From Granulicella sapmiensis (GTDB lineage Bacteria; Acidobacteriota; Terriglobia; Terriglobales; Acidobacteriaceae), in assembly GCA_026225395.1 (NCBI GenBank), contig JAMFSR010000019.1, positions 1 to 64,000 of the forward strand: a stretch of DNA of 64,000 bases, in the 5' to 3' direction. The position numbers and the translations under genes are program-made. The notes below the pieces were generated by a model, which saw only the letters and a list, made by a program, of their open reading frames with translations, was not told the origin of the DNA and ran no database searches. Below are positions 18,591-39,074 of the stretch, piece by piece (position 1 is the first letter of the stretch; every line of letters begins with the position of its first letter).

Positions 18591-19763
18591 ATGAGGGTAG
18601 GAGTGGCGGGGTGGTATTTGGCCGTTGTTGTTCTGGTTGCTTCGAGTTGTGGGGCGCAGGCGTTTCAGCATCCGGGGGTGCTGGTGAGTGGGGCGCAGTT
18701 GGAGTTTGTGAAGGCGCAGATTGGGGCGAAGGCAGAGCCGTTTTATGGCGAGTATCAGAAGGCTGTGGCGAGTGAGTATGGGGCGCTTGATTACAAGCTG
18801 CTGGGACCGCCGGCCACGGGAGTGATTGAGTGTGGGTCGTACTCGCGGCCGGACAATGGATGCCATGCAGAGGATACGGATGCGAGCGCGGCGTATGTGC
18901 AGTCGCTGCTCTGGTACATCACGGGCGACCATCGTTATGCAGACAATGCGATTCGGATTGTGAATGCGTATGGGCATCACCTGCTGGCGTATAGCAACTC
19001 GAATATGCCGCTGCAGGCGGCGTGGAGTGGAGAGGTGTGGCCGCGGTCGGCCGAGATTTTGAAGTACAGCAATGCTGGGTGGAAGGCGGAAGACCAAGAG
19101 GCGTTTACGAAGATGCTGAAGACGGTGATCCTGCCGTATCTTCGTGAAGGCTCGGGTGCGAATGGGAACTGGGAGTTGAGCATGATCGACGCGATGATGG
19201 GCATTGCCGTGTTTACCGACGATCATGATCTGTTGAAGCGTGCGGAAGATATGTGGATGGAGCGGGTGCCGACTTATTTTTATAACTCTGCGCTCGATGG
19301 AGCGCATCCGCGGCCGATGCCGCGCAAGGACAAGAAGGTGAGCTGGTATGGCACGACGGATTTGAATGCGAGCGTGGATGGGATCAGTTCGGAGACGTGC
19401 AGAGACCTGGGGCATACGAGCTTTTCGATTGCGGCGACAATGGATGCGGCGGAGACGGCGCACATCCAGGGGGACAAGTTGTTTGAGGCGGAGCAGAAGC
19501 GGCTTGTTGCTGCGTTGGAGTTTCATGCGCGGTTGCTCTTGAAGAAAGAGCCTGTGCCGATGCTGGTTTGTGGTGGGTCGGTGCATTATGCGGAGGGCAA
19601 TACGTTTGTGGTTGGGTATAACGAGTATCACAACCGTCTGGGTGTGCCGATGCCTGAGAGCAAGGAGTGGATTGAGCAGCATGTGGAGACGGATGCGGTG
19701 CCGGTGGATTCGCACATGATGGTGTTTGAGCCGTTGACGCATGGGGGGAATAGCAGGTTTTAG
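18591..19763 (+). CDS. Secreted alginate lyase-family (PF05426-type) protein, 390 aa
   Basis: A signal peptide (residues 1-24, ending CGAQA) precedes an alpha-toroid domain of the Alginate_lyase family. The conserved stretches NSNMPLQAAWSGEVWPRSAE, GANGNWELSMIDAMMGI, and CRDLGHTSFSIAA with likely catalytic Asn, His and Tyr residues are visible. It should cleave acidic polysaccharide outside the cell or in the periplasm; the substrate is unknown. ATG 18591 follows GAGG; upstream codons are not part of the protein. The coding strand is G-rich. The last codons (SRF) and the stop lie within a 22-bp repeat also found at 21987. Confidence 0.82.
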   Translation: MRVGVAGWYLAVVVLVASSCGAQAFQHPGVLVSGAQLEFVKAQIGAKAEPFYGEYQKAVASEYGALDYKLLGPPATGVIECGSYSRPDNGCHAEDTDASAAYVQSLLWYITGDHRYADNAIRIVNAYGHHLLAYSNSNMPLQAAWSGEVWPRSAEILKYSNAGWKAEDQEAFTKMLKTVILPYLREGSGANGNWELSMIDAMMGIAVFTDDHDLLKRAEDMWMERVPTYFYNSALDGAHPRPMPRKDKKVSWYGTTDLNASVDGISSETCRDLGHTSFSIAATMDAAETAHIQGDKLFEAEQKRLVAALEFHARLLLKKEPVPMLVCGGSVHYAEGNTFVVGYNEYHNRLGVPMPESKEWIEQHVETDAVPVDSHMMVFEPLTHGGNSRF

Positions 19764-19773
19764 GTTTTAGGAA
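19752..19773 (+). repeat. 22-bp repeat spanning a stop codon; identical copy at 21987-22008
   Basis: AGCAGGTTTTAGGTTTTAGG plus AA occurs identically at the 3' ends of two neighbouring genes (19752-19773 and 21987-22008). It supplies the final Ser-Arg-Phe codons and the TAG stop of both. Related words (AGCAGGTTTTGGGGATTGG) follow the gene ending at 33182. It is probably a low-complexity repeat that has spread at gene ends. Confidence 0.7.
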
Positions 19774-19786
19774 AGGCGAGAGCGAA

Positions 19787-19842
19787 GGCCCGGGGCTAAA
19801 GCCCCTTTTCAAGGTGCGGTAGTCAGTGGGCTAAAGCCCACT
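19787..19842. repeat. Double-hairpin repeat, inverse copy of 10921-10978
   Basis: CCCGGGGCTAAAGCCCC and AGTGGGCTAAAGCCCACT form two hairpins about 20 bases apart, in opposite orientation to the copy at 10921. It is followed by GATCCTTCGAGGATGACAG (19873-19891), a short form of a third dispersed repeat seen also at 28554 and 31222. The 213-base gap 19764-19976 contains only these repeats. Confidence 0.75.
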
Positions 19843-19976
19843 GCTAATCCGAGAGGCAACGGTTGCAGAACAGCAGATCCTTCGAGGATGACAGAAAGAA
19901 AAGCAAGTACAACAGCAAAGACAGAGAATGACGGAAAGAAAAGCAAGTGAAACAGCAAGGGATGAGGATTTGAGGG

Positions 19977-21998
19977 ATGACTCTTCGTAAGCCGGTACTG
20001 CTTATTGTTGCTGGATTGTTGTTGGTTGCGATGGCGGCGCAGATTGCGTTGAGTCTGCGGCAGCAGTCGTTTACGTGGGATGAGGGGGACCATCTGTTTG
20101 CGGGGTACATGTCGCTGAAGAAGGGCGACTTTGCGTTGAACCCGGAGCATCCGCCGCTGGCGAAGATGGTTGCTGCGTTGCCGTTGTTGCCGCTGCACCT
20201 GGTTGTGCCGCCGATGCAGGGACGGTACTTCAAGGATGAAGCTTACTTTGGTGGGCGTGAGCTGGTGTTCCGCAATGACCCGGTGCATGGCGGCAAGTAT
20301 GCGGGGGATGTGCTGCTGTTTTATGCGCGAATGTCGATCATGGTGTTTGCACTGTTGCTGGCTGTGACGGTGTTCCTTGCAGGGTGGGAGATGTTTGGTG
20401 CGGCGGCGGGTTTGATTGCGTTGGCGCTTGCGGTGTTTGAGCCGAACCTGTTGACCAATGGCGGATTGGTGACGACCGATGCTGCGGTGAGCTGCATGTT
20501 CTTTGCGGCGGTGTACGCGTTCTACCGGTATTGCAAGGTGCCTTCGGTTGGAAGGTTGGTGATGGTGGGGTTGGCGACGGGGTTGGCGTTGGCTTCGAAG
20601 CACTCGGCGATTCTGTTGCCGCCGGTGCTGGTGGTGTTGGCGGTGGGTGAGTTGGCTGGACGATGGCGCGCGATGCGGGGCAGTGAAGAATCGTGGCGGA
20701 GGGAAGTGTGGCGATTGCTGGGTGCGGTTGTTGCGATGCTGGCGATTGGAGTGTTTGTGTTGTGGGCGTGTTATGGGTTCCGGTATGCGATGCGACCTAG
20801 CGGGCCGATGGAGATTCCTACGCTGCTGTCTACGATGACGACGCTGCCGGCGCTGGATAACAAAGTGATCCTGTTTGCGGTGCGATGGCGTTTGCTGCCG
20901 GAGAGTTATCTGTTTGGGTTGGTGGATGTGCGGCGGGTTGCGGGGTTTCAGCCGACGTTCTTTCTGGGGCGGATACGGCAGACAGGGGTGTGGTATTACT
21001 TTCCGGTTGTGTTGTTGATAAAGCTGACGCTGCCGTTGCTGCTGCTGGTGGCTACGGCTGCATGGGCGATGGTTTCAAGGCGTGTGCGACAGCGGCGTGA
21101 GATTTGGTTTCTGGTGGCGCCGCCGGTGATGTTTCTGGGGTTTGCGTTGACGTCTCCATTGAATGTCGGGCTGCGGCATGTGTTGCCAGTTGTGCCGTTT
21201 CTGCTGATGCTGGCGGCGATGGGTGCTGTGGTGTTGGTGCGGCAGAGGCGTGGGTTTGTTTGGGTGGTGGGTACGTTGCTGGTATGGAATGCGGTGTCGT
21301 GTCTGCGGGCTTATCCGAACTACATGCCTTATAGCAACGAGGCGTGGGGTGGTCCGGCGAAGACGCGGTTGTATCTGACGGACTCCGCGGTGGACTGGGG
21401 ACAGCAGTTGAAGGCTACGAAGGCGTATCTGGATGCGCACGGCATCCATGACTGCTACTTTGCTTACTTCATTGAGCCGTACATTCGTTTTGAGGATTAT
21501 GGAATTCCGTGCAAGCCGCTGCCTACGCTGGAGACGCGGAGTTTGTTTGAGATCGATGTGCCGCCGGTTGTGCATGGGCCGGTACTTATCAGTGACTCGG
21601 TGCTGGGTGGGTATGAACTGGAGAGCTCGGTGAGGAACCCGTACGATTCGCTGTTTCGGCGGAAGCCGGATGACGTGATCATGAATGGCGTGGAAGTGTA
21701 TCGCGGAGATTTTGCGCTGCCGCTGGCGCGGTCGGAGATGTATGAAGAGCGGGCGCGGAAGGCGATGAAGACCGATCCGCAGGCGGCACTGGTGGCGGCA
21801 ACCGAGGCCGTGGCGATTGCGCCGCAGGGGATCGACGCGCATCTGGAACGCGGTAATGCGTTATCTGCGCTGGGACGGAAGAGTGAGGCGGTTGAGGAGT
21901 ATCGGAAGGTGAAGGTGATCGCGGAAGGGATGGAACCGGGGACGAAGGAGACGTGGGAAGGGAAGATGGATGGGTTGATTGGGGAGAGCAGGTTTTAG
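19977..21998 (+). CDS. Polytopic glycosyltransferase-like (GT-C/PMT_2 type) protein with C-terminal TPR-like tail, 673 aa
   Basis: About twelve membrane segments follow an N-terminal signal anchor. FTWDEGDHLF (residues 32-41) holds the acidic pair of GT-C transferases, and NPEHPPLAKM the following periplasmic loop motif, as in ArnT/PMT-like enzymes that use polyprenyl-phosphate sugars. After the membrane part, a soluble domain (from about 450) and a C-terminal TPR-like helix pair (AHLERGNALSALGRKSEAVE) follow. The donor and acceptor are unknown. It directly follows the alginate lyase gene on the same strand and shares its G-rich base use. Confidence 0.75.
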   Translation: MTLRKPVLLIVAGLLLVAMAAQIALSLRQQSFTWDEGDHLFAGYMSLKKGDFALNPEHPPLAKMVAALPLLPLHLVVPPMQGRYFKDEAYFGGRELVFRNDPVHGGKYAGDVLLFYARMSIMVFALLLAVTVFLAGWEMFGAAAGLIALALAVFEPNLLTNGGLVTTDAAVSCMFFAAVYAFYRYCKVPSVGRLVMVGLATGLALASKHSAILLPPVLVVLAVGELAGRWRAMRGSEESWRREVWRLLGAVVAMLAIGVFVLWACYGFRYAMRPSGPMEIPTLLSTMTTLPALDNKVILFAVRWRLLPESYLFGLVDVRRVAGFQPTFFLGRIRQTGVWYYFPVVLLIKLTLPLLLLVATAAWAMVSRRVRQRREIWFLVAPPVMFLGFALTSPLNVGLRHVLPVVPFLLMLAAMGAVVLVRQRRGFVWVVGTLLVWNAVSCLRAYPNYMPYSNEAWGGPAKTRLYLTDSAVDWGQQLKATKAYLDAHGIHDCYFAYFIEPYIRFEDYGIPCKPLPTLETRSLFEIDVPPVVHGPVLISDSVLGGYELESSVRNPYDSLFRRKPDDVIMNGVEVYRGDFALPLARSEMYEERARKAMKTDPQAALVAATEAVAIAPQGIDAHLERGNALSALGRKSEAVEEYRKVKVIAEGMEPGTKETWEGKMDGLIGESRF

Positions 21999-23921: not shown

Positions 23922-23999
23922 GGGTTGAGGAGAGCGGTCGTTTGCTGCCGCAAACGATACCCCACCGTTTCGCAAAGTACGCGAAAGGATGGGCCACCC
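23922..23999. repeat. Palindromic element with GTCGTTTGC leader hairpin
   Basis: The core CCCCACCGTTTCGC ... GCGAAAGGATGGGCCACCC (23960-23999) is a hairpin bounded by CCCCACC and GGGCCACCC. It is preceded by a second small hairpin GTTTGCTGCCGCAAAC (23939-23954). The full two-hairpin form recurs at 27327-27401 and 28611-28689, and the core alone at 30607, 32198 and 33330. On the other strand the ends read GGGTGGCCCAT and GTGGGG, the same ends as the TCATCGCG-type elements at 10738, 11041 and 11246. Confidence 0.85.
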
Positions 24000-29706: not shown

Positions 29707-30855
29707 TTAGGTGAGGCCGGCGCGGTGGGCGTGTGCGGCGATTTCTTCGTTGATAGTGAGGGCTAGAGCTAAGGCGGCGCGGGCGGCGGTGGCGTTTACG
29801 CGGGGTTGCGTGCGTGTGGCTATGGCGTTGAGGAAGTCTTCGAGCTCGAGGCGGAGGGGTTCGGCATGGGGGAGATCTAGTTTTTGAAGGTTTAGGCCGG
29901 CGGAGGGGTGGGTAGGTACGTCGGGTGTCTGAAGAGGTTTGAGGGTTAGAGGGGCGAGGTTTGAGGGTGTAGATTGCGAGGCGGCGTGCAGGGCTGCAAG
30001 CGTTGCTGCTGCTGCGGGGTCTACGGAGATGGTGAGGAGTTCCTGGCGGGCGAAGTCGAGCGAGAGGTACTGGTGGGGCTGGAAGAGGCGGAGCTTGCGG
30101 ACCTGTTCGGTGGAGACGCGGGAGGCGGTGAAGTTGGCGACGCAGCCGGATTCGAACTCGACGCGGACGTTGGCGATGTCGGCCTTTTTGGAGAGGATGG
30201 CGATGCCTACGGCGCGGACTTCTCTTATGGGTGATTGCGTGAGCGAGAGGACGATGTCGAGGTCGTGGATCATGAGATCGAGGACGACGTCTACGTCGAG
30301 CGAGCGGGGGGTGAAGATGCTGAGGCGGTGGGCTTCGAAGAACATGGGGTTATTGAGGAGGGAGGTGACGGCGGTGACGGCGGGGTTGAAGCGCTCGAGG
30401 TGGCCTACGGCTACGATGCGGTTGTTTTGTTGGGCGAGGTGAAGGATCGCGTCGGCTTCGGCTAGCGATGCGGCGATTGGTTTTTCGATGAGGATGTCGA
30501 GGTTGGCGTTGAGGAGCTGGGTGGCGACGGTCGCGTGGTGGATGGTGGGGACGCAGATGCTGGCGGCGTCGATGAGGTAGGGGTTTCCTTCGGTACTCCC
30601 GCTGGACCCCACCCTTTCGCCAAGTGCGCGAAAGGATGGGCCACCCGGATTTTTGGAGGTGAGGAGGGCTTCGACCGAGGGGAAGGTGGGGATGTTGTAG
30701 AGGGTGGCGTATTCGTGGCGGCGGGCTTCGTCGGGTTCGACTAAGGCGACCAGCTGGACGAGGTTGGGATGAGCGAGTTCGAGCTCGCGGTAGACGCGCA
30801 GGTGGTTGCGCCCGAAGGCGCCGGCTCCGATGACGGCGACGCGGATTGGGGGCAC
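29707..30855 (-). CDS. Gfo/Idh/MocA-family oxidoreductase (GnnA-like) carrying a translated repeat, 382 aa
   Basis: An NAD-dependent sugar dehydrogenase. VAVIGAGAFGRNHLRVY is the Rossmann motif, LIEKPIAASL carries the catalytic Lys, and VDVVLDLMIHDLDIVL the second domain motif. The protein resembles UDP-GlcNAc 3-dehydrogenases (GnnA) of lipid A synthesis, but no lpx gene is in the window. Residues about 70-91 (GGPSFRALGERVGSSGSTEG) are the in-frame translation of a palindromic repeat inserted in the loop before ASICVPT. The start is GTG 30855, two bases after the small gene upstream, so they form an operon. Confidence 0.82.
   Translation of the reverse strand: MPPIRVAVIGAGAFGRNHLRVYRELELAHPNLVQLVALVEPDEARRHEYATLYNIPTFPSVEALLTSKNPGGPSFRALGERVGSSGSTEGNPYLIDAASICVPTIHHATVATQLLNANLDILIEKPIAASLAEADAILHLAQQNNRIVAVGHLERFNPAVTAVTSLLNNPMFFEAHRLSIFTPRSLDVDVVLDLMIHDLDIVLSLTQSPIREVRAVGIAILSKKADIANVRVEFESGCVANFTASRVSTEQVRKLRLFQPHQYLSLDFARQELLTISVDPAAAATLAALHAASQSTPSNLAPLTLKPLQTPDVPTHPSAGLNLQKLDLPHAEPLRLELEDFLNAIATRTQPRVNATAARAALALALTINEEIAAHAHRAGLT
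30607..30646. repeat. Palindromic element inside the Gfo/Idh gene
   Basis: The core CCCCACCCTTTCGCCAAGTG ... GCGAAAGGATGGGCCACCC is essentially identical to the copies at 32198 and 33330. It lies within the oxidoreductase coding region in the Rossmann domain and keeps the reading frame open. Confidence 0.9.
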
Positions 30856-30857
30856 GG

Positions 30858-31079
30858 TTACTTCTTGGCTGCCGGGGCTTCTACGGCTTCGCGGCAGCGC
30901 GTGTAGAGCTCGAGGAGGCTGGTGACCTGATCTTCGGACTTGGGGGCCGATGGGATGCCGAAGCCGGGTGTGGCGGCGGTGGCGGCCTTGCCTACGTTGG
31001 TGTGGGCGGCGACGAACTTGAGGAGGTCAAGAGCGATGTCTTCGGTGCGGCGAGCGGCGAGGTTGGGGCTTTGTTCCAT
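30858..31079 (-). CDS. Small conserved-looking helical protein, 73 aa
   Basis: Unrecognised. It is predicted soluble and helical, with RRTEDIALDLLKFVAAHTNV and EDQVTSLLELYTRCREAVE as two helices joined by a Gly/Pro/Ala linker and a basic tail. It sits two bases upstream of the Gfo/Idh gene on the same strand, which argues for co-translation. The start is ATG 31079. Confidence 0.55.
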   Translation of the reverse strand: MEQSPNLAARRTEDIALDLLKFVAAHTNVGKAATAATPGFGIPSAPKSEDQVTSLLELYTRCREAVEAPAAKK

Positions 31080-31262: not shown

Positions 31263-31488
31263 TTCAAAAAGGTGTTTGTGGGTTTCATTTTGGGAAAACT
31301 TGGGGTGTTTTCTGTTGGGACGCTAGGCGTTGTGGGGCGGAGTGCGGCGATGATTGGCGGAGTGAGAGGAAGTACTTTGTCGAGGCGAAGATTAGGCGAA
31401 GAAATAAAGGTATAACTTCCGCAAAATACACCCAACGCATTGTAAAAAAACGAGTTAGTTCGGATTTGGGAATGAGTGAAAAAAGTCG

Positions 31489-31517
31489 TTGACATGCCTA
31501 TCTCGTGAGCCTATAAA
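31489..31517 (+). promoter_or_regulatory. Near-consensus sigma-70 type promoter
   Basis: TTGACA (31489-31494) and TATAAA (31512-31517) are separated by exactly 17 bases, in an AT-rich setting. It is the best promoter match noticed in the window. Transcription should start near 31524 and run through the structured leader into the genes at 31795 and 31983. Confidence 0.8.
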
Positions 31518-31523
31518 CGGCAC

Positions 31524-31794
31524 ACTTTCACCTGTTGTTGAGAACTGGGCGCCTTGGAAAGGGCGTGGGTTGGTTCCCGATTCGGGATGGGGAAGAGAGG
31601 TCGAGACCGGTGTTGTGACCGGGTTCTCGAGTGCGAAGTCGTAGCAACGACAAACAGGCTTTGCCTGGCCGGTACCCGAGCTGATAGAGCTAGGGGCGGG
31701 ACTGGGCGTGGCCTCATAGACCCTGAGCGAGCCCCTTCGACCGCTGAAAAATTTGTGAGGCTTGCCGGGGAGAGCTGTGTCCGGAGACGAACGA
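31524..31794 (+). ncRNA. Candidate structured leader RNA, about 270 nt, unknown class
   Basis: Between the promoter and the GTG of the next gene lie successive strong hairpins: CCCGA/TCGGG (31576-31586); TCGAGACCGGT paired with ACCGG-GT-TCTCGA (31601-31630, 11 pairs with a small bulge); GTCGT/ACGAC with a four-base loop (31638-31651); CAGGC/GCCTG (31655-31667); and a longer AGGGGC/GCCCCT arm (31692-31736). No frame here looks like protein. It could be a cis-regulatory leader or a separate RNA. I could not match it to 6S RNA, tmRNA, SRP RNA or RNase P from memory. Confidence 0.55.
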
Positions 31795-31986
31795 GTGAAC
31801 TACTTTCGAGTTGAACTAAAAGTATGTGAAGGGTGCGGGACACTTTGGCTCCGTGCCATGGGACACGGGAAGTACTGCCTTGGGTGTGCGGTGCGGTTGT
31901 CGGAGTTTCCGGCGCCGCGGATGAGCCGACGCGGGAAGAAGCGCGCGGCGACTCGAACGGCTGTTTGTGTTGGAGGAGGACGATGA
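31795..31986 (+). CDS. Small zinc-ribbon protein, 63 aa
   Basis: VNYFRVELKVCEGCGTLWLR continues to a second pair in YCLGCAVRLSEF, giving CxxC-x14-CxxC, a zinc ribbon. A very basic tail (SRRGKKRAATRT) suggests nucleic-acid binding. GGAG stands nine bases before GTG 31795. The end overlaps the start of the sigma-like gene by four bases (ATGA), so the two are coupled. It lies directly after the structured leader. Confidence 0.65.
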   Translation: MNYFRVELKVCEGCGTLWLRAMGHGKYCLGCAVRLSEFPAPRMSRRGKKRAATRTAVCVGGGR

Positions 31987-32666
31987 AAAAGCAGGGATTA
32001 GGGATTAGGGAACAGGGATTAGGTGGGCTTCGGTTGGTGCGGAAGCCTGTGGCTCGTCAGGAGGCTGCTGTTGAGGGCCTGCGTGAGGGCTCGACGGGGC
32101 GGGTGGTGGTGATGGCCCCTGCTGCGTTGCGGATTGCGGTGATGCCGCGGATCTGGGCTGTGGCGGATGTGGGGGTTTCTTTGGCACCCCCGCTGGACCC
32201 CACCCTTTCGCCAAGTGCGCGAAAGGATGGGCCACCCGGAGTCGTTGGGGTGCCTGCAGGGGCACCGGCGGCTGCGGTGAATGCGGAGCCGCAGGTGGCC
32301 TTCTACCGGAAGTACACGGAGGCGATGCTGCGGCGGTATATGCGGCTTTCGATGGAGGCTGGGAGGGTGCCTTCGCTGATGGGGCGGGAGCTCTTTCGGG
32401 GGCATGTGACGAGCTACAAGGTGAAGAGCTTTGAGGATGTGGTGATCTTCTGCCATGACGTGGAGAAGTGCCTCACGGTGCTTGATGCCAGGGAACGGGA
32501 GTTGATCAAGCGGATCGGGTTGCAGGCGTATTCGCATGGGGAAGCCGCTGCGATTCTGGGGCTGCCTCTGCGGAGCTGTATACGGCACTACTTCGCTGCA
32601 CTGGATAAGCTTACTCATCGGCTGCTGGAGCTTGAGTTGCTCAAACCGCTCGAAAGTTGTCAATAG
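31983..32666 (+). CDS. Sigma-70 region 4-like DNA-binding protein with two translated repeats, 227 aa
   Basis: The C-terminal third is a helix-turn-helix like sigma region 4: LTVLDARERELIKRIGLQAY, then SHGEAAAILGLPLRSCIRHY and a closing helix. No region 2 is present, so it is not a complete sigma factor; an anti-termination or phage-type regulator is possible. Residues 4-14 (QGLGIREQGLG) are the translation of a GGGATTAGG array. Residues 72-85 (DPTLSPSARKDGPP) translate a palindromic element. GGAGGACG precedes ATG 31983, which overlaps the zinc-ribbon stop. Confidence 0.6.
   Translation: MKKQGLGIREQGLGGLRLVRKPVARQEAAVEGLREGSTGRVVVMAPAALRIAVMPRIWAVADVGVSLAPPLDPTLSPSARKDGPPGVVGVPAGAPAAAVNAEPQVAFYRKYTEAMLRRYMRLSMEAGRVPSLMGRELFRGHVTSYKVKSFEDVVIFCHDVEKCLTVLDARERELIKRIGLQAYSHGEAAAILGLPLRSCIRHYFAALDKLTHRLLELELLKPLESCQ
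32198..32237. repeat. Palindromic element inside the sigma-like gene
   Basis: The core matches 30607-30646 and 33330-33369 almost base for base. It is read in frame on the plus strand, whereas the copy in the Gfo/Idh gene is read on the opposite strand of the element, giving a different peptide. Confidence 0.9.
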
Positions 32667-32834: not shown

Positions 32835-33182
32835 GTGGCGGCGAAGAACAAGGCAGGGGTGAGCGTTCCGGTGGACGGCGAGGAGGCGGTTGTGGCGGTG
32901 AAGCTTCCGACGGCGGTGCAGTGCAAGCAGACCTTTCAGAGGGAGCTGGCGGGGAACATCAAGGAAATTGTGAAGGGGTTTGTGGACGAGGCCAAGAAAG
33001 GGAGTTGCGCGCATGTGAAGCTGGCGAACGAGCTGCTGGATGCGGTGATTGAACAGCAAGCGGCGCGGAGGAAGGGACCGGCGGAGCGGCAGGCGGATGC
33101 GTGGATTCGGGAGGGGAAGCCGAAGGCGAAGAAGATTCGCGGGGAAGATGGGCGGTTTGAGAAGGGGACGGTGCTGCAGTAA
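32835..33182 (+). CDS. Small basic protein of unknown function, 115 aa
   Basis: Starts AAKNKAGVSVPVDGEEAV. A central helical segment (FQRELAGNIKEIVKGFVDEA, then HVKLANELLDAVIE) is followed by a strongly basic tail (KPKAKKIRGEDGRFEKG). GGGGAGG precedes GTG 32835. The position, just after a strong terminator and before a truncated secreted gene, recalls small phage packaging or structural accessory proteins, but I do not recognise a family. Confidence 0.5.
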   Translation: MAAKNKAGVSVPVDGEEAVVAVKLPTAVQCKQTFQRELAGNIKEIVKGFVDEAKKGSCAHVKLANELLDAVIEQQAARRKGPAERQADAWIREGKPKAKKIRGEDGRFEKGTVLQ

Positions 33183-33257: not shown

Positions 33258-33369
33258 TTTGAGGAGAACGGTCGCGCTTTCCACCCCAACGAACAAGAGC
33301 GTTCGTCGGGGACCCCGGTTTGCGCGATGCCCCACCCTTTCGCCAAGTGCGCGAAAGGATGGGCCACCC
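33258..33369. repeat. Compound palindromic element
   Basis: GAGAACGGTCGC is followed by a CGAAC/GTTCG hairpin and GGGGACCCCGGTTTG, then the standard core CCCCACCCTTTCGC ... GGGCCACCC (33330-33369). The GGGGACCCCGGTT linker also occurs in the element inside hslU (62029-62110), tying that copy to this family. Confidence 0.8.
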
Positions 33370-33791: not shown

Positions 33792-35435
33792 TTAGCCGAT
33801 GTCTTCGGACCAGTTTTCGAGGTACTGTTTGAAGTCGGTCATGAACTTGCCGGCGTCGGCTCCGTCGATGATGCGGTGATCGAAGCCGAGGGTGAAGCGC
33901 TGGATCCAGCGGATGGCGATGGAGTCGTTGCCGTCCTTATCGGTGAGGACCATGGGTTCTTTGTTGAGGCCGCCGATGCCGAGGATGGCTGCTTGCGGCT
34001 GAGCGATGATCGGGGTGCCGAACTGCTCGCCGAAGATGCCGGAGTTGGTGAGGGTGAAGGTGCCGCCGGAGACTTCGTCGGGAGCGAGCTTCTTATTGCG
34101 GGCGCGGTCGGCGATATCGATGATGGCGCGTGTGATGCCGAGGAAGTTCTTCTCTTCGGTCTGTTTGATGACGGGGACGATGAGGCCCCAGTCGAGCGCG
34201 ACGGCGATGCCGATGTTGATGTTCTTGTTGTAGAGGATCGCTTCGCCCTGGATGGCGGCGTTGACGATGGGGTGCTTGCGCAGCGCCTGGATAGCGGCAC
34301 GCGTGATGAAGGGCATGTAGGTGAGCTTGACGCCGTTGCGCTGCTCGTACTTGTTCTTCTCTTTTTCGCGGAGCTTGACGATGCGGGTCATGTCCACCTT
34401 GAAGACGGTGTGGACGTGTGGGCTGGTGGCTTTGGACTCAACCATGCGCTTGGCGATGATGCTGCGCATCTTGGACATGGGGACGAGCTCGCCGGGTTGG
34501 GGCTGCGGAGCTGCGGGAGCGGCTGCTTTGGCCGGTGCTGCTGCCTGTGTTGCTGCTGGCTTGGCACCGCCGCCGTCGAGGTGGGCGGTGATGTCCTGCT
34601 TGGTGATGCGGCCGGAAGCGCCGGTGCCGGGGACGGTGGAGAGATCGACGTTGTTCTCGGCGGCGATTTTGCGGACGAGCGGCGAGGAGCGGAGGCCTTC
34701 GCCGGCTGTGGCTGAAGCAACAGCGGGGGCTGCTGGCTTTGCCGGGGCAGGAGTTGCTGCCGGTGCTGCTGCTGCCGGTGCTGCTGCTGCCGGTGCTGCC
34801 TTCGCGGGTGCGCCGGTAGCTCCGCCGATGACGGCGACGATGGTGTTGATGGTGACCGTTGAGCCTTCGGGGACCTTGATTTCGGTCAGAGTGCCTGCTA
34901 CGGGCGAGGGGATTTCTGCGTCGACTTTGTCGGTGGAGATTTCGAAAAGGGGTTCGTCGCGGGCGACGGTGTCGCCGACCTTCTTGAGCCACTTGGTGAG
35001 GGTGCCTTCGGTGATGGATTCGCCCATCTGCGGCATGGGAATCTCGGTTCCGGGACCGGTGGACGCGGGCGCCATGGCTTCGGCTGTTGCGATGGCGTCG
35101 TTGGTGGCCATGTCGGCTCCGGAGGGGGTCACGGTGTCTTCTTTGACCGGGAGAGCTGTGGCTGGAGCTGCTGCTGCCGGTTTGGCTGCTGCTCCGCCTT
35201 CTTCGCTGATGGTGCAGACGAGGGCGCCGACGTTGACGGTGGTGCCTTCCTGGACCTTGATTTCGCCCAGGACCCCAGCTACCGGCGAGGGGATTTCGGC
35301 GTCGACCTTGTCGGTCGAGATTTCGAAGAGAGGTTCATCGCGGGCGACTGTGTCGCCGGGCTTTTTGAGCCACTTGGTGAGGGTGCCTTCGGTGATGGAT
35401 TCGCCCATCTGGGGCATGACTACGTCGGTCGGCAT
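33792..35435 (-). CDS. 2-oxo acid dehydrogenase E2 (dihydrolipoyl acyltransferase) with two lipoyl domains, 547 aa
   Basis: Two nearly identical lipoyl domains (about residues 1-75 and 130-205), each with the lipoylated Lys in EISTDKVDAEIPSP, are joined by Ala/Pro-rich linkers. A peripheral-subunit-binding domain follows (SSPLVRKIAAENNVDLSTV) and then the catalytic acyltransferase domain with the HxxxD site in GFDHRIIDGAD. Layout fits SucB or a branched-chain/pyruvate E2; MPQMGESITEGT favours the succinyl or branched type. ATG 35435 is preferred over an upstream TTG. lipB lies just upstream on the same strand and lpdA is 2 kb away; no E1 gene is in the window. Confidence 0.92.
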   Translation of the reverse strand: MPTDVVMPQMGESITEGTLTKWLKKPGDTVARDEPLFEISTDKVDAEIPSPVAGVLGEIKVQEGTTVNVGALVCTISEEGGAAAKPAAAAPATALPVKEDTVTPSGADMATNDAIATAEAMAPASTGPGTEIPMPQMGESITEGTLTKWLKKVGDTVARDEPLFEISTDKVDAEIPSPVAGTLTEIKVPEGSTVTINTIVAVIGGATGAPAKAAPAAAAPAAAAPAATPAPAKPAAPAVASATAGEGLRSSPLVRKIAAENNVDLSTVPGTGASGRITKQDITAHLDGGGAKPAATQAAAPAKAAAPAAPQPQPGELVPMSKMRSIIAKRMVESKATSPHVHTVFKVDMTRIVKLREKEKNKYEQRNGVKLTYMPFITRAAIQALRKHPIVNAAIQGEAILYNKNINIGIAVALDWGLIVPVIKQTEEKNFLGITRAIIDIADRARNKKLAPDEVSGGTFTLTNSGIFGEQFGTPIIAQPQAAILGIGGLNKEPMVLTDKDGNDSIAIRWIQRFTLGFDHRIIDGADAGKFMTDFKQYLENWSEDIG

Positions 35436-35520
35436 CGGGATCTTTTTCTCCGGAAACAATAGGTGCTGCGCAACATTGGATTATATGCGGCTGAGGTAGA
35501 TGTCCGCATAGGCCGTGCGT

Positions 35521-36258
35521 TTAGCGGACTGTGGTTGTGCTGGAAGCAAGCAGCTCGTCGAGGGTTTCTACGGCGAGGATCTGGCGGTGGAAGACGTGGC
35601 CGAACTTGGCGGCTACAGCGTTAGCCGCCTGCGCGAGCGTTGGCGGAGGGTCGAGTGGGGACTCTAGTTCGAGCGAGGTGACGGTGCGGTCGGTGATGCC
35701 GCAGGGGACGATCCAGTCGAAGTCGCGGAGGTCAGTGGTGACGTTGAGCGCGAAGCCGTGCGAGGTGATGGCCTGCGAGACGTGAATGCCGATGGCGGCG
35801 ATTTTTTTCTCGCGGATGCTGCCGCCAGCGTAGGTCCAGACGCCGGTGAGCTTGCAGATGCGCTGGGCGGGGACGCCGAAGTCCTTGCAGGTGAGGATGA
35901 GGGCTTCTTCCATGAGGCGGACGAAGTCGACGGGGCCGAGGTGTGGGCCTTTTTTGCCGGGAAGGTCGCCGCGGAGGTCGAAGATGGGGTAGCCGACGAG
36001 CTGGCCGGGACCATGGTAGGTGACGTCGCCGCCGCGGTTGATGTCGTGGATTTCGACTTCGCGCCGGGCCAGGGTCTCGTCGGTGGCGAGGATGTTGGCG
36101 CGGGTGGCGTTGCGGCCGAGGGTGAGGACCGGTGGGTGCTCGAGGAGCAGGAGCGTGTCGCCGATGACGCCGGCTTTGCGGGCGGCGACGACTTCGGCCT
36201 GGATGCGCAGGCCTTCGGCGTAGGAGATGCGGCCTAGTTGGAGGAGGTGGATGTGCAT
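35521..36258 (-). CDS. lipB: Lipoyl(octanoyl) transferase LipB, 245 aa
   Basis: Transfers octanoate from acyl carrier protein to E2 and GcvH lysines; LipA then makes lipoate. The signature RGGDVTYHGPGQLVGYP is around residue 75. GVWTYAGGSIREKKIAAIGI carries the catalytic Lys, and VPCGITDRTVTSL the acyl-accepting Cys. The length is normal. It is upstream of the two-lipoyl-domain E2 on the same strand with an 85-base gap, a logical operon of a modifying enzyme and its substrate. Confidence 0.95.
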   Translation of the reverse strand: MHIHLLQLGRISYAEGLRIQAEVVAARKAGVIGDTLLLLEHPPVLTLGRNATRANILATDETLARREVEIHDINRGGDVTYHGPGQLVGYPIFDLRGDLPGKKGPHLGPVDFVRLMEEALILTCKDFGVPAQRICKLTGVWTYAGGSIREKKIAAIGIHVSQAITSHGFALNVTTDLRDFDWIVPCGITDRTVTSLELESPLDPPPTLAQAANAVAAKFGHVFHRQILAVETLDELLASSTTTVR

Positions 36259-37610: not shown

Positions 37611-39074
37611 TTAGACATTGATTGCCATGCCCTCAACGCTCGAGAAGCCGTCGAGCAGGCTCTCGCTTAGCGTGGGGTGGGCGTGGATGGTGAACATCAG
37701 CTCTTCAACCGTGGCTTCGAGCTCCATGGCGACGACGCACTCGGCGATGAGCTCGGTGGCGTTCGGGCCGATGATGTGGACGCCGAGGACTTCGCCGTAC
37801 TTGGCGTCGGAGACGACCTTGACGAAGCCGTCGTGCGAGTCGAGGATGGTGGCCTTCGAGTTGCCGACGAACGGGAACTTGCCGACCTTGACCTGGTAGC
37901 CCTTTTCCTTGGCTTGCGCCTCCGTGAGGCCGACACTGCCGATCTGCGGATCGCAGTAGGTGCAGCCCGGGACGCGGTCTTTGCGGACGGGGCGTGCGTA
38001 TTTGCCAGCGAGTTTGCTGGCGACGACGACGCCGCACATTGCGCCGACATGGGCGAGCTGTGGGAGGCCGGCGACGATGTCGCCGATGGCGTAGACGCCG
38101 GGTTCGGTAGTTTCCATCCATTCGTTCACGGGGACGAAGGCGCGGTCGAGGGTGATGTTCACCTTGTCGAGGCCGGCGTCATAGGTGCGCGGTCCGCGGC
38201 CCACGGCGACGAGGACCTTTTCGGCTTCCTTGACCTGCGGCTTGCCGGAGGCGTCGGTAAAGCTGACCTTTACGCCGCCCTTGGTTTTTTCGATCTTCTC
38301 GACCTTGCAGCTTACGTTTACGTCGATGCCGCGCTTCTTATAGGCGCGGGTCAGCTCCTTGGAGACTTCTTCGTCTTCCACGGGAACGATGCGGGGCAGC
38401 GCCTCGACGATGGTGACTTCCGCGCCGAAGCTCTTGAAGACCGAAGCGAACTCGACGCCGACGGCACCGGAGCCGATGACAACCAGCGACTTGGGGAACT
38501 CGGGCAACGAGAGGATCTCGATGTTGGTCAGGATGGTGTCGTCGGCCTTGTAACCGGGAAGCATGCGGGCGTCGGAGCCGGTGGCGAGTACGACCTTCTT
38601 AGCCTGTACCTTGGTCGCGGTCTGGGCTTCGGAGCCTTGGCCTTTGCCTTTGTCTTCCGCGGTGACGTCAATGGTGAAGACACCGTCTTTGGCGCCACCG
38701 GTCAGACGGCCGTGGCCGCGGACGACAGTGATCTTGTTCTTCTTCATCAGGAAGTCGAGACCCTTGGTGTGCTTCACGATGATGTCGTTCTTGCGCTTGA
38801 GCACGTTGGACCAGTTGAGCTTCGGCGCACTGACGCCTTCGATGCCGTAGCTTTCGGCGTGCTTCAGGTGGTCCCAGACTTCGGCGGAGAAGAGCATGGC
38901 CTTGGTCGGGATGCAGCCCCAGTGCAGGCATGTGCCGCCGAGCTTGTCGGTTTTTTCGATGATGGCGACCTTCAGGCCGAGCTGTGCGGCGCGGATGCCG
39001 CAGGTGTAGCCGGCGGGACCGCCGCCGAGGATGACGAGATCGTAGATTGTTTCTGCCAAGGGGAGTGGCTCCAT
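37611..39074 (-). CDS. lpdA: Dihydrolipoyl dehydrogenase (E3), 487 aa
   Basis: A flavoprotein that reoxidises dihydrolipoamide of 2-oxo acid dehydrogenases with NAD. FAD motif VILGGGPAGYTCGIRAAQLG at the start; the redox disulfide in GGTCLHWGCIPTK; the NAD motif VIGSGAVGVEFASVFKSFG mid-protein; a second FAD motif YAIGDIVAGLPQLAHVG; and the C-terminal HAHPTLSE with the catalytic His-Glu of the partner subunit. The length is typical. It probably serves the E2 encoded at 33792. Confidence 0.96.
   Translation of the reverse strand: MEPLPLAETIYDLVILGGGPAGYTCGIRAAQLGLKVAIIEKTDKLGGTCLHWGCIPTKAMLFSAEVWDHLKHAESYGIEGVSAPKLNWSNVLKRKNDIIVKHTKGLDFLMKKNKITVVRGHGRLTGGAKDGVFTIDVTAEDKGKGQGSEAQTATKVQAKKVVLATGSDARMLPGYKADDTILTNIEILSLPEFPKSLVVIGSGAVGVEFASVFKSFGAEVTIVEALPRIVPVEDEEVSKELTRAYKKRGIDVNVSCKVEKIEKTKGGVKVSFTDASGKPQVKEAEKVLVAVGRGPRTYDAGLDKVNITLDRAFVPVNEWMETTEPGVYAIGDIVAGLPQLAHVGAMCGVVVASKLAGKYARPVRKDRVPGCTYCDPQIGSVGLTEAQAKEKGYQVKVGKFPFVGNSKATILDSHDGFVKVVSDAKYGEVLGVHIIGPNATELIAECVVAMELEATVEELMFTIHAHPTLSESLLDGFSSVEGMAINV

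Follow-up and report, generated by a model that had tools for sequence, protein, structure and literature searches.

The RNA leader described here is a real structured RNA family that has no entry in Rfam and in which one hairpin, termed P1, is supported by covariation. Judged by sequence comparison, it is a conserved leader of soil Acidobacteriaceae; the copy from which this analysis started lies in a 64,000-nucleotide stretch of the Granulicella sapmiensis genome (contig JAMFSR010000019.1; here termed the window), where it precedes ZnR, a zinc-ribbon gene, and SIG, a gene with a sigma-70 region-4 domain. It shows two features of a structured cis-regulatory leader, namely a covariation-supported structure (P1) and a constant place before one gene family. 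On balance, we lean towards a reading in which the first operon of a vertically inherited, phage-derived element resembling a gene transfer agent begins with this 5′ leader and has its regulators controlled through P1; the leader looks like a control element of a domesticated virus, possibly of that kind. A bolder proposal, which we offer tentatively and regard as somewhat unlikely in its entirety, is that of a family-wide gene transfer agent of Acidobacteriaceae, situated at the odhB/Gfo-Idh locus and independent in origin from those of proteobacteria, with its production gated by a leader RNA of a new class, the bulged-A hairpin of which is read by ZnR. To our knowledge, few gene transfer agents are well characterised. 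A particle cluster with shared neighbours, present in 52 of the 79 genera sampled, would be a strong new candidate, and the combination of a defined promoter, a leader RNA and two small regulators makes the control of this candidate directly testable.

The leader RNA and hairpin P1

The promoter (31489..31517, + strand) consists of TTGACA (31489-31494), a 17-bp spacer and TATAAA (31512-31517), and has its counterpart in relatives: a TTGAC-N16..20-TA[TC]A promoter is present at the corresponding position in 63 of 67 distinct leaders. The promoter scan lists none for this site because it requires T as the last base of the -10 box. The leader RNA, of approximately 270 nt (31524..31794, + strand), has a 5′ end estimated from the -10 box; over 63 leaders its length is 157-305 nt, with a median of 280. 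Upstream of the promoter lies a conserved DNA block, a GCGAA-N6-GCGAA direct repeat with an 11-bp period (31385..31400, + strand), and many of the 63 leaders show, by eye, a similar block approximately 95-110 bp 5′ of their -35 box. This block is a possible regulator-binding site. A large regulon was considered and rejected: with up to one mismatch allowed, the pattern has few matches in the whole genome (seven, that in the window being exact), somewhat above the reversed-pattern control (two). A second possible regulator site, also noted by eye, is a TTGACA-N6/7-TTGTC(A/T)A palindrome that covers the -35 box and spacer in many Edaphobacter-type leaders, such as L085.

The first-pass annotation had described this promoter, a series of hairpins without a protein-like frame and a zinc-ribbon gene behind them, with stems not repeated elsewhere in the window, and all of this is borne out. 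Hairpins are predicted throughout 31520-31794 (minimum free energy -111.8 kcal/mol), no Pfam family matches up to an E-value of 0.1 in the three overlapping leader frames tested, the zinc-ribbon gene begins with GTG at 31795 and is followed by the sigma-70-region-4-like gene, and a search of the whole genome with the stretch returns a sole match, to itself. The same annotation had held the folding to be exceptional, which is not confirmed; what stands out is comparative, in the conservation and covariation of one hairpin and in the promoter type shared by 63 of 67 leaders. The folding energy of the window leader is ordinary (z -1.81, with seven of 200 shuffles as stable), and 17 leaders chosen from the 67, the window among them, have a mean z of -0.71, with two below -2; folding energy was dropped as evidence, the z values being ordinary. 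A search of Rfam, which had been named as a check, gives no family above its gathering threshold anywhere in the window, and the leader stays without a family at relaxed thresholds, where a chance-level match to RAGATH-5 falls outside the leader on the opposite strand (31859-31912). Local folds place a mid-leader hairpin (31602..31629, + strand) in the region where the alignments put the UUUUCCCAGG/UUUUUCCCAAGG segment that is conserved in relatives; its helix is unproven by covariation.

Homologous leaders were found by DNA search in 10 of 61 genomes, including that of the window, and, when the leader of a relative served as the query, in 16 of 28 genomes of the genus. The alignments share the promoter and are strongly conserved over the last approximately 85 nt, up to the zinc-ribbon start codon. 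A covariance model, R1, was built from 13 sequences; it scores 85.6 bits on the window, which is part of its training set. R1 finds a single match per genome in 31 of 300 genomes of the family (three of 79 genera), in 49 of the 62 genomes examined from a second genus and in 55 of 298 across the order. All 55 belong to this family, and the match in G392 is probably false. With E-values up to 1, R1 matches 27 of 36 sources (the window and 35 named loci), under names that include Granulicella, Edaphobacter, Bryocella and KBS 146; two named records are metagenome bins with non-acidobacterial labels, possibly mislabelled.

P1 is an 11-pair hairpin at the 3′ end of the leader (31722..31769, + strand), 13 nt upstream of the Shine-Dalgarno sequence of ZnR. 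Its 5′ arm comprises CCUG (31722-31725), a bulged A (31726) and GCGAGCC (31727-31733), its 3′ arm GGCUUGC (31759-31765) and CGGG (31766-31769), and its loop is conserved, most strongly in a CGACC core and then in a YUGA-like stretch. Stem covariation had been named as a check on the leader, and it is found in this hairpin. Identical sequences were removed before all counts. The inner helix, P1a (GCGAGCC with GGCUCGC in the family), has standard pairs in 94.9% of cells over 67 distinct sequences, with two-sided changes in seven of eight pairs; the whole structure is 91.3% paired, against at most 61.9% in slid controls, and none of 500 shuffles reaches its scores, all in an alignment fitted to the covariance model. 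Against a null simulated on the tree, for which 64 of the 67 sequences were kept (L024/L041, L049 and L125 left out), p<0.01 is reached by six of the eight pairs of P1a, and within the tested set the A-U/G-C pair attains an E-value of 0.004; over all column pairs, the tree null leaves none significant alone. The outer helix, P1b, in which CCUG pairs with CGGG across the bulged A, was tested on the very sequences in which it had been spotted: over 66 of the 67 leaders (L125 left out), 220 of 264 cells are paired, where 2000 shuffles have a mean of 203.6 (sd 3.0) and a maximum of 213. Paired cells fall to 146 without the bulge and to 105 with a two-base bulge. One P1b pair occurs as U-G in 31 sequences, U-A in 17, C-G in 11 and G-C in one, with six non-pairs.

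P1 is the sole element of the leader with covariation support. The Shine-Dalgarno GGAG (31783..31786, + strand) lies 8 nt 5′ of the GTG start and would be touched by P2, a weaker helix of GGGG with CCU/CCGG that is conserved without significant covariation. An all-pairs covariation test of the whole leader with a tree-based null gave nothing significant in 63 of the 67 leaders (L008, L010, L106 and L125 left out). We also considered and rejected an anti-Shine-Dalgarno pairing of the mid-leader UUUCCCAAGG segment, which is attractive in single leaders and unsupported when duplexes of each leader with its own partner are compared with swapped ones. With 58 of the 67 leaders (L008, L010, L011, L024, L027, L049, L105, L106 and L125 left out), this comparison gave p 0.075-0.083, whereas the control, shifted by -50, came out at p 0.011. 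Over the interval -185..-140, p was 0.24 for all 40 leaders kept from 43 (L008, L010 and L054 left out) and 0.08 in one clade; one interval elsewhere, in the Granulicella clade, reached p 0.03. Shuffles of single leaders were mostly unremarkable and no covariation was found for the pairing; contact between mid-leader UUUCCC(A)AGG and the Shine-Dalgarno region is unproven.

The phage-type gene cluster and its inheritance

ZnR (31795..31986, + strand) encodes a 63-aa CxxC...CxxC zinc-ribbon protein with a basic C-terminus, to which Pfam zf-dskA_traR matches only below the cut-off. It directly follows the hairpin in 64 of the 67 distinct leaders by a strict motif and in 65 when a variant (L086) is counted; the exceptions are L011, which carries a deletion, and L125, probably a false match. 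SIG (31983..32666, + strand; 227 aa) has a start that overlaps the ZnR stop (ATGA) and a sigma-70 region-4 domain just below the Pfam cut-off (PF08281, E 5e-5, 23.3 bits). The C-terminal part of its predicted model has a pLDDT above 90 and resembles sigma region-4 chains, with target TM-scores of approximately 0.73-0.86, although the best Foldseek E-value is 0.026. Of 35 named loci, 34 contain both ZnR and SIG; the remaining one (L036) begins near a contig end at SIG.

In relatives these genes open a run of phage-like genes. On one IMG/VR contig (L127), the leader (30.2 bits), ZnR and SIG are followed by such a run, with a divergent CI-like repressor, and the corresponding cluster in genome G241 occupies approximately 19 kb and comprises repressor, zinc ribbon, sigma-region-4 protein, terminase, portal, head-tail adaptor and a presumed capsid gene. 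Domains identified in the cluster are those of the head-tail adaptor (phrog_442), the terminase large subunit (phrog_2/PF17289) and the portal (PF04860, E 2e-52; best PDB match the RcGTA portal Rcc01684, E 8e-5), together with a HipA-like kinase, DUF3037, a GDSL lipase domain in a long protein and HTH_26 in the repressor. The capsid candidate, a protein of the L127 run, is found at 80-86% identity in six of nine genomes tested, approximately 2.4-3.1 kb 3′ of the leader in four and approximately 14-18 kb in two. It has no Pfam or PHROG match and no PDB sequence match, and its predicted model has a pLDDT of 30; its identity as a capsid protein is presumed from its position in the gene run. The run is common to G241, G290, G344, G401, G022 and G006, with gene order in agreement over the stretch fetched in the first four and modules permuted in the last two.

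Twenty further loci from 13 genera, selected for having the capsid candidate and fetched at 19 kb each, all contain terminase and portal. The pieces found there follow the order repressor, ZnR, SIG, tail, terminase, HipA, DUF3037, portal, protease-like, scaffold-like, capsid candidate, where protease-like, scaffold-like and tail are positional labels; missing pieces include HipA in L157 and the repressor in eight loci. The tail-type protein of G241, so named by position, has 1571 aa and a GDSL lipase/acylhydrolase domain (L136, 12785-17497). HipA is found in 25 of 26 loci compared, and the HipA-like kinase and DUF3037 genes lie between terminase and portal (19306-21055 in the joined coordinates of L136/L137 in G241).

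The surroundings of the cluster are shared in part. Downstream, the window genes odhB (33792-35459), lipB (35521-36258) and lpd (37611-39074), all on the - strand and named from a reading of their proteins, are 75-76% identical to the flank of the G241 cluster, and the flank in G022 matches that in G241. Upstream, the window has a gene for a Gfo/Idh-type oxidoreductase (again named from its protein) and a small ORF (30858-31079), together spanning 29707..31079 on the - strand. Both precede the repressor in nine of the 20 other loci and the small ORF alone does so in two more; neither is seen in the fetched stretch of the remaining nine, and the upstream genes of G241 differ (glyA, for example). 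The phage-derived particle cluster is thus apparently kept at one chromosomal spot in relatives, as far as flanking genes indicate.

Such a cluster might be an ordinary temperate prophage with a phage leader, a reading that concerns the cluster, is compatible with the rival explanations of the leader discussed below and strikes us as a serious if somewhat doubtful alternative. A CI-like repressor, a portal and a terminase are what it calls for; relatives of SIG in three IMG/VR contigs, and of the capsid candidate in 30 (69-86%; possibly host fragments), speak in its favour, and such regions have been called prophages before (PMC5900883 and PMC11924767, in their available text). Its weakness lies in how the cluster is distributed. 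Chromosomal neighbours are common to different genera, if unseen in the fetched stretch of nine of the 20 loci, and the capsid candidate occurs in 172 of 300 genomes of the family (52 of 79 genera) with a single match in 169 of the 172 and two in three. Some of these matches contain stops, most of them with an open frame of at least 325 aa, which speaks against the gene-transfer-agent reading. A sample of the whole class has it in 83 of 399 genomes, 80 of this family and three of one other family (58-63% identity). A search of 50,697 phage records finds nothing for the capsid candidate and 14 matches for the portal, at approximately 23-25% identity among the matches listed. No integrase or replication gene was found among the conserved cluster ORFs scanned.

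Divergence, moreover, tracks a host gene. In Mantel comparisons with distances of the neighbouring Gfo/Idh gene (n=11), r was 0.64 for the capsid candidate (p 0.0006), 0.72 for terminase and 0.78 for portal; for the CI-like repressor it was not significant (r 0.39, p 0.06, n=9). By the Nei-Gojobori method, dN/dS is 0.03-0.31 for the capsid candidate, terminase and portal (five pairs each) and up to 0.50 for SIG, with dS near saturation in several pairs. Flanks, Mantel distances and dN/dS below 1 together point to vertical inheritance under purifying selection, and the cluster is probably a domesticated phage element. A gene-transfer-agent reading of it, with the particle function that this presumes, is plausible from the sequences.

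Earlier descriptions probably include this element. The survey of 19 acidobacterial genomes by Eichorst et al. (2018; PMC5900883) lists 35 predicted prophages, with one cluster (cluster 153) common to Terriglobus and others, and the paper on Tunturi virus (PMC11924767) places Terriglobales proviruses of group (ii) in many places; in the available text, both concern phage-like regions across Terriglobus, Koribacter, Granulicella and others that resemble the present cluster. The T. roseus region at 150-180 kb covers the position of the capsid candidate in G328 (164,280), if G328 is T. roseus, whereas the T. saanensis coordinates given for cluster 153 do not fit the genome taken for T. saanensis. 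A paper on Sphagnum (PMC12142844) reports, in its available part, a shared phage-like contig that matches an Acidobacteriaceae genome, and names gene transfer agents as a possible fate of cryptic phages. Since the published prophages probably include it, the cluster itself may not be wholly new. Cluster 153 and group (ii) are described as prophages, however, and the available sections of the two papers make no mention of a fixed locus, of host-tracking divergence, of ZnR and SIG or of a leader RNA. In the open-access literature searched (PMC), neither the leader RNA nor an acidobacteriaceal gene transfer agent was met with, and the shared locus and host-tracking divergence of the cluster were likewise not found described. 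Strain KBS 146 had no prophage predicted, yet one portal gene is counted for it in Table 1 of that survey (PMC5900883, available text). This strain, reported there as prophage-free, carries the leader (L048).

Proposed control by P1 and rival mechanisms

RNA hairpins with a bulged A are recognised by phage proteins, and Com of phage Mu is a small zinc-binding translational activator. The present system is analogous by description in having a bulged-A hairpin near a start codon and a small zinc protein in the operon, and the leader would be a cis-regulatory RNA of a phage-derived element, a kind already known. With its conserved loop, its bulged A and its place next to the Shine-Dalgarno sequence, the hairpin resembles a protein-binding translational switch, and because ZnR is small, zinc-ribbon-type and basic, autoregulation by ZnR is the first guess. 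In the mechanism that we propose, transcription would start at the TTGACA-17-TATAAA promoter, and P1 with its conserved loop would form a binding site for a protein, ZnR being the first candidate. Binding would alter the access of ribosomes to the ZnR start, and coupling at the ATGA overlap would pass this effect on to SIG, which might then act on RNA polymerase and switch on the rest of the cluster. The leader would in this way set the threshold of a tightly held switch. We infer that its control of ZnR, the first regulator, is in cis and probably exerted through translation.

The gene transfer agent of Caulobacter crescentus with its regulators GafY and GafZ (PMC11150451, available text) is alike in being a phage-derived cluster with a regulator that has a sigma-like helix-turn-helix, and in its long untranslated region and palindromic promoter element, the latter seen here only in part of the family. 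Unlike there, the regulators here come first in the cluster and a covarying hairpin lies at their ribosome-binding site, and the likeness is one of features. RcGTA and its activator GafA (PMC6363796, PMC9638019; available text) share the sigma-like C-terminal region of the activator, besides the portal match given above; RcGTA is distant, however, in another bacterial phylum, and the capsid candidate here lacks a PDB sequence match.

The Caulobacter system also suggests the main rival on mechanism, which we consider unlikely: processive antitermination, in which SIG, alone or with ZnR, would load on RNA polymerase at the promoter or leader RNA and read through the cluster as GafZ does. The sigma-region-4 domain of SIG fits this, as do the palindrome seen in many Edaphobacter-type promoters and the precedent of GafZ, with its sigma-like helix-turn-helix and a palindrome between the -10 and -35 boxes (PMC11150451, available text). 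The 63 leaders are also without terminator-like sites. The position of P1 argues the other way, at the ribosome-binding site and approximately 200 nt from the promoter, and the palindrome is not seen in the window or in the Granulicella-type promoters listed.

The absence of terminators bears on the remaining rivals too. Our own scan found intrinsic-terminator-like sites in none of 63 leaders (shuffles: mean 4.8, sd 2.2), and leader-peptide-like ORFs are at chance, in 30 of the 63 (shuffles: 25.4, sd 4.3); terminator attenuation and leader peptides were rejected on these two counts. A small-molecule riboswitch or terminator-based attenuator for ZnR, for which a conserved loop and structure next to the ribosome-binding site could be claimed, is also at odds with the lack of an Rfam match and with linked genes that are phage-type regulators and virion genes, and seems to us quite improbable. 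Less probable still, to the point of being barely credible, is an independent small RNA: the leader has its own promoter and a conserved end, but the + strand junction between leader and ZnR has no terminator-like site, and the most conserved part reaches the ZnR start and takes in the Shine-Dalgarno sequence. What survives of the original suggestion of a riboswitch-like leader, attenuator or small RNA is a promoter-driven, structured and conserved leader; the three specific roles are unsupported, as the scan found no terminator-like sites, ORFs are at chance and P1 lies beside the ZnR ribosome-binding site in 65 of 67 leaders.

The locus in Granulicella sapmiensis

The virion and packaging genes that are kept together in relatives (terminase, portal, adaptor and the positional capsid candidate) are absent from the window genome. 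Within the window and the 20 kb downstream, the cluster genes with a match are ZnR, SIG and a small third gene only (32835..33182, + strand), S7-like by a sub-threshold Pfam match and 34% identical over 71 aa to its counterpart in G241, and neither capsid candidate nor portal has a match in the genome, a 94.5%-complete draft. The window therefore appears to hold the surviving head of the phage-derived cluster, with the particle genes lost and the small third gene as a remnant, and the leader itself may here be a retained or decaying remnant.

Of the 31 genomes that carry the leader, 24 also have the capsid candidate, compared with 172 of all 300 (Fisher p 0.02); the other seven, the window genome among them, lack it. 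The recognised leader is far narrower in range, with three of 79 genera against 52 for the capsid candidate; of the 15 other-locus regions in which ZnR was located, R1 fails to recognise it in 14 and reaches an E-value of 0.02 in the fifteenth. Genomes with the leader and regulators and without particle genes provide natural deletion controls.

A different deletion is seen in G017 (L011), where the leader is kept and joined to a gene that in G241 sits between the cluster and odhB, only the first ten codons of ZnR remain and no SIG is seen in the vicinity. The window also contains a 38-bp interspersed repeat (30609-30646, 32200-32237, 33332-33369 and 23962-23999), three copies of which are exact and one of which has three mismatches. 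The reading frames of Gfo/Idh and SIG contain copies, and the part of SIG with its copy is one in which gaps or other residues occur in five relatives.
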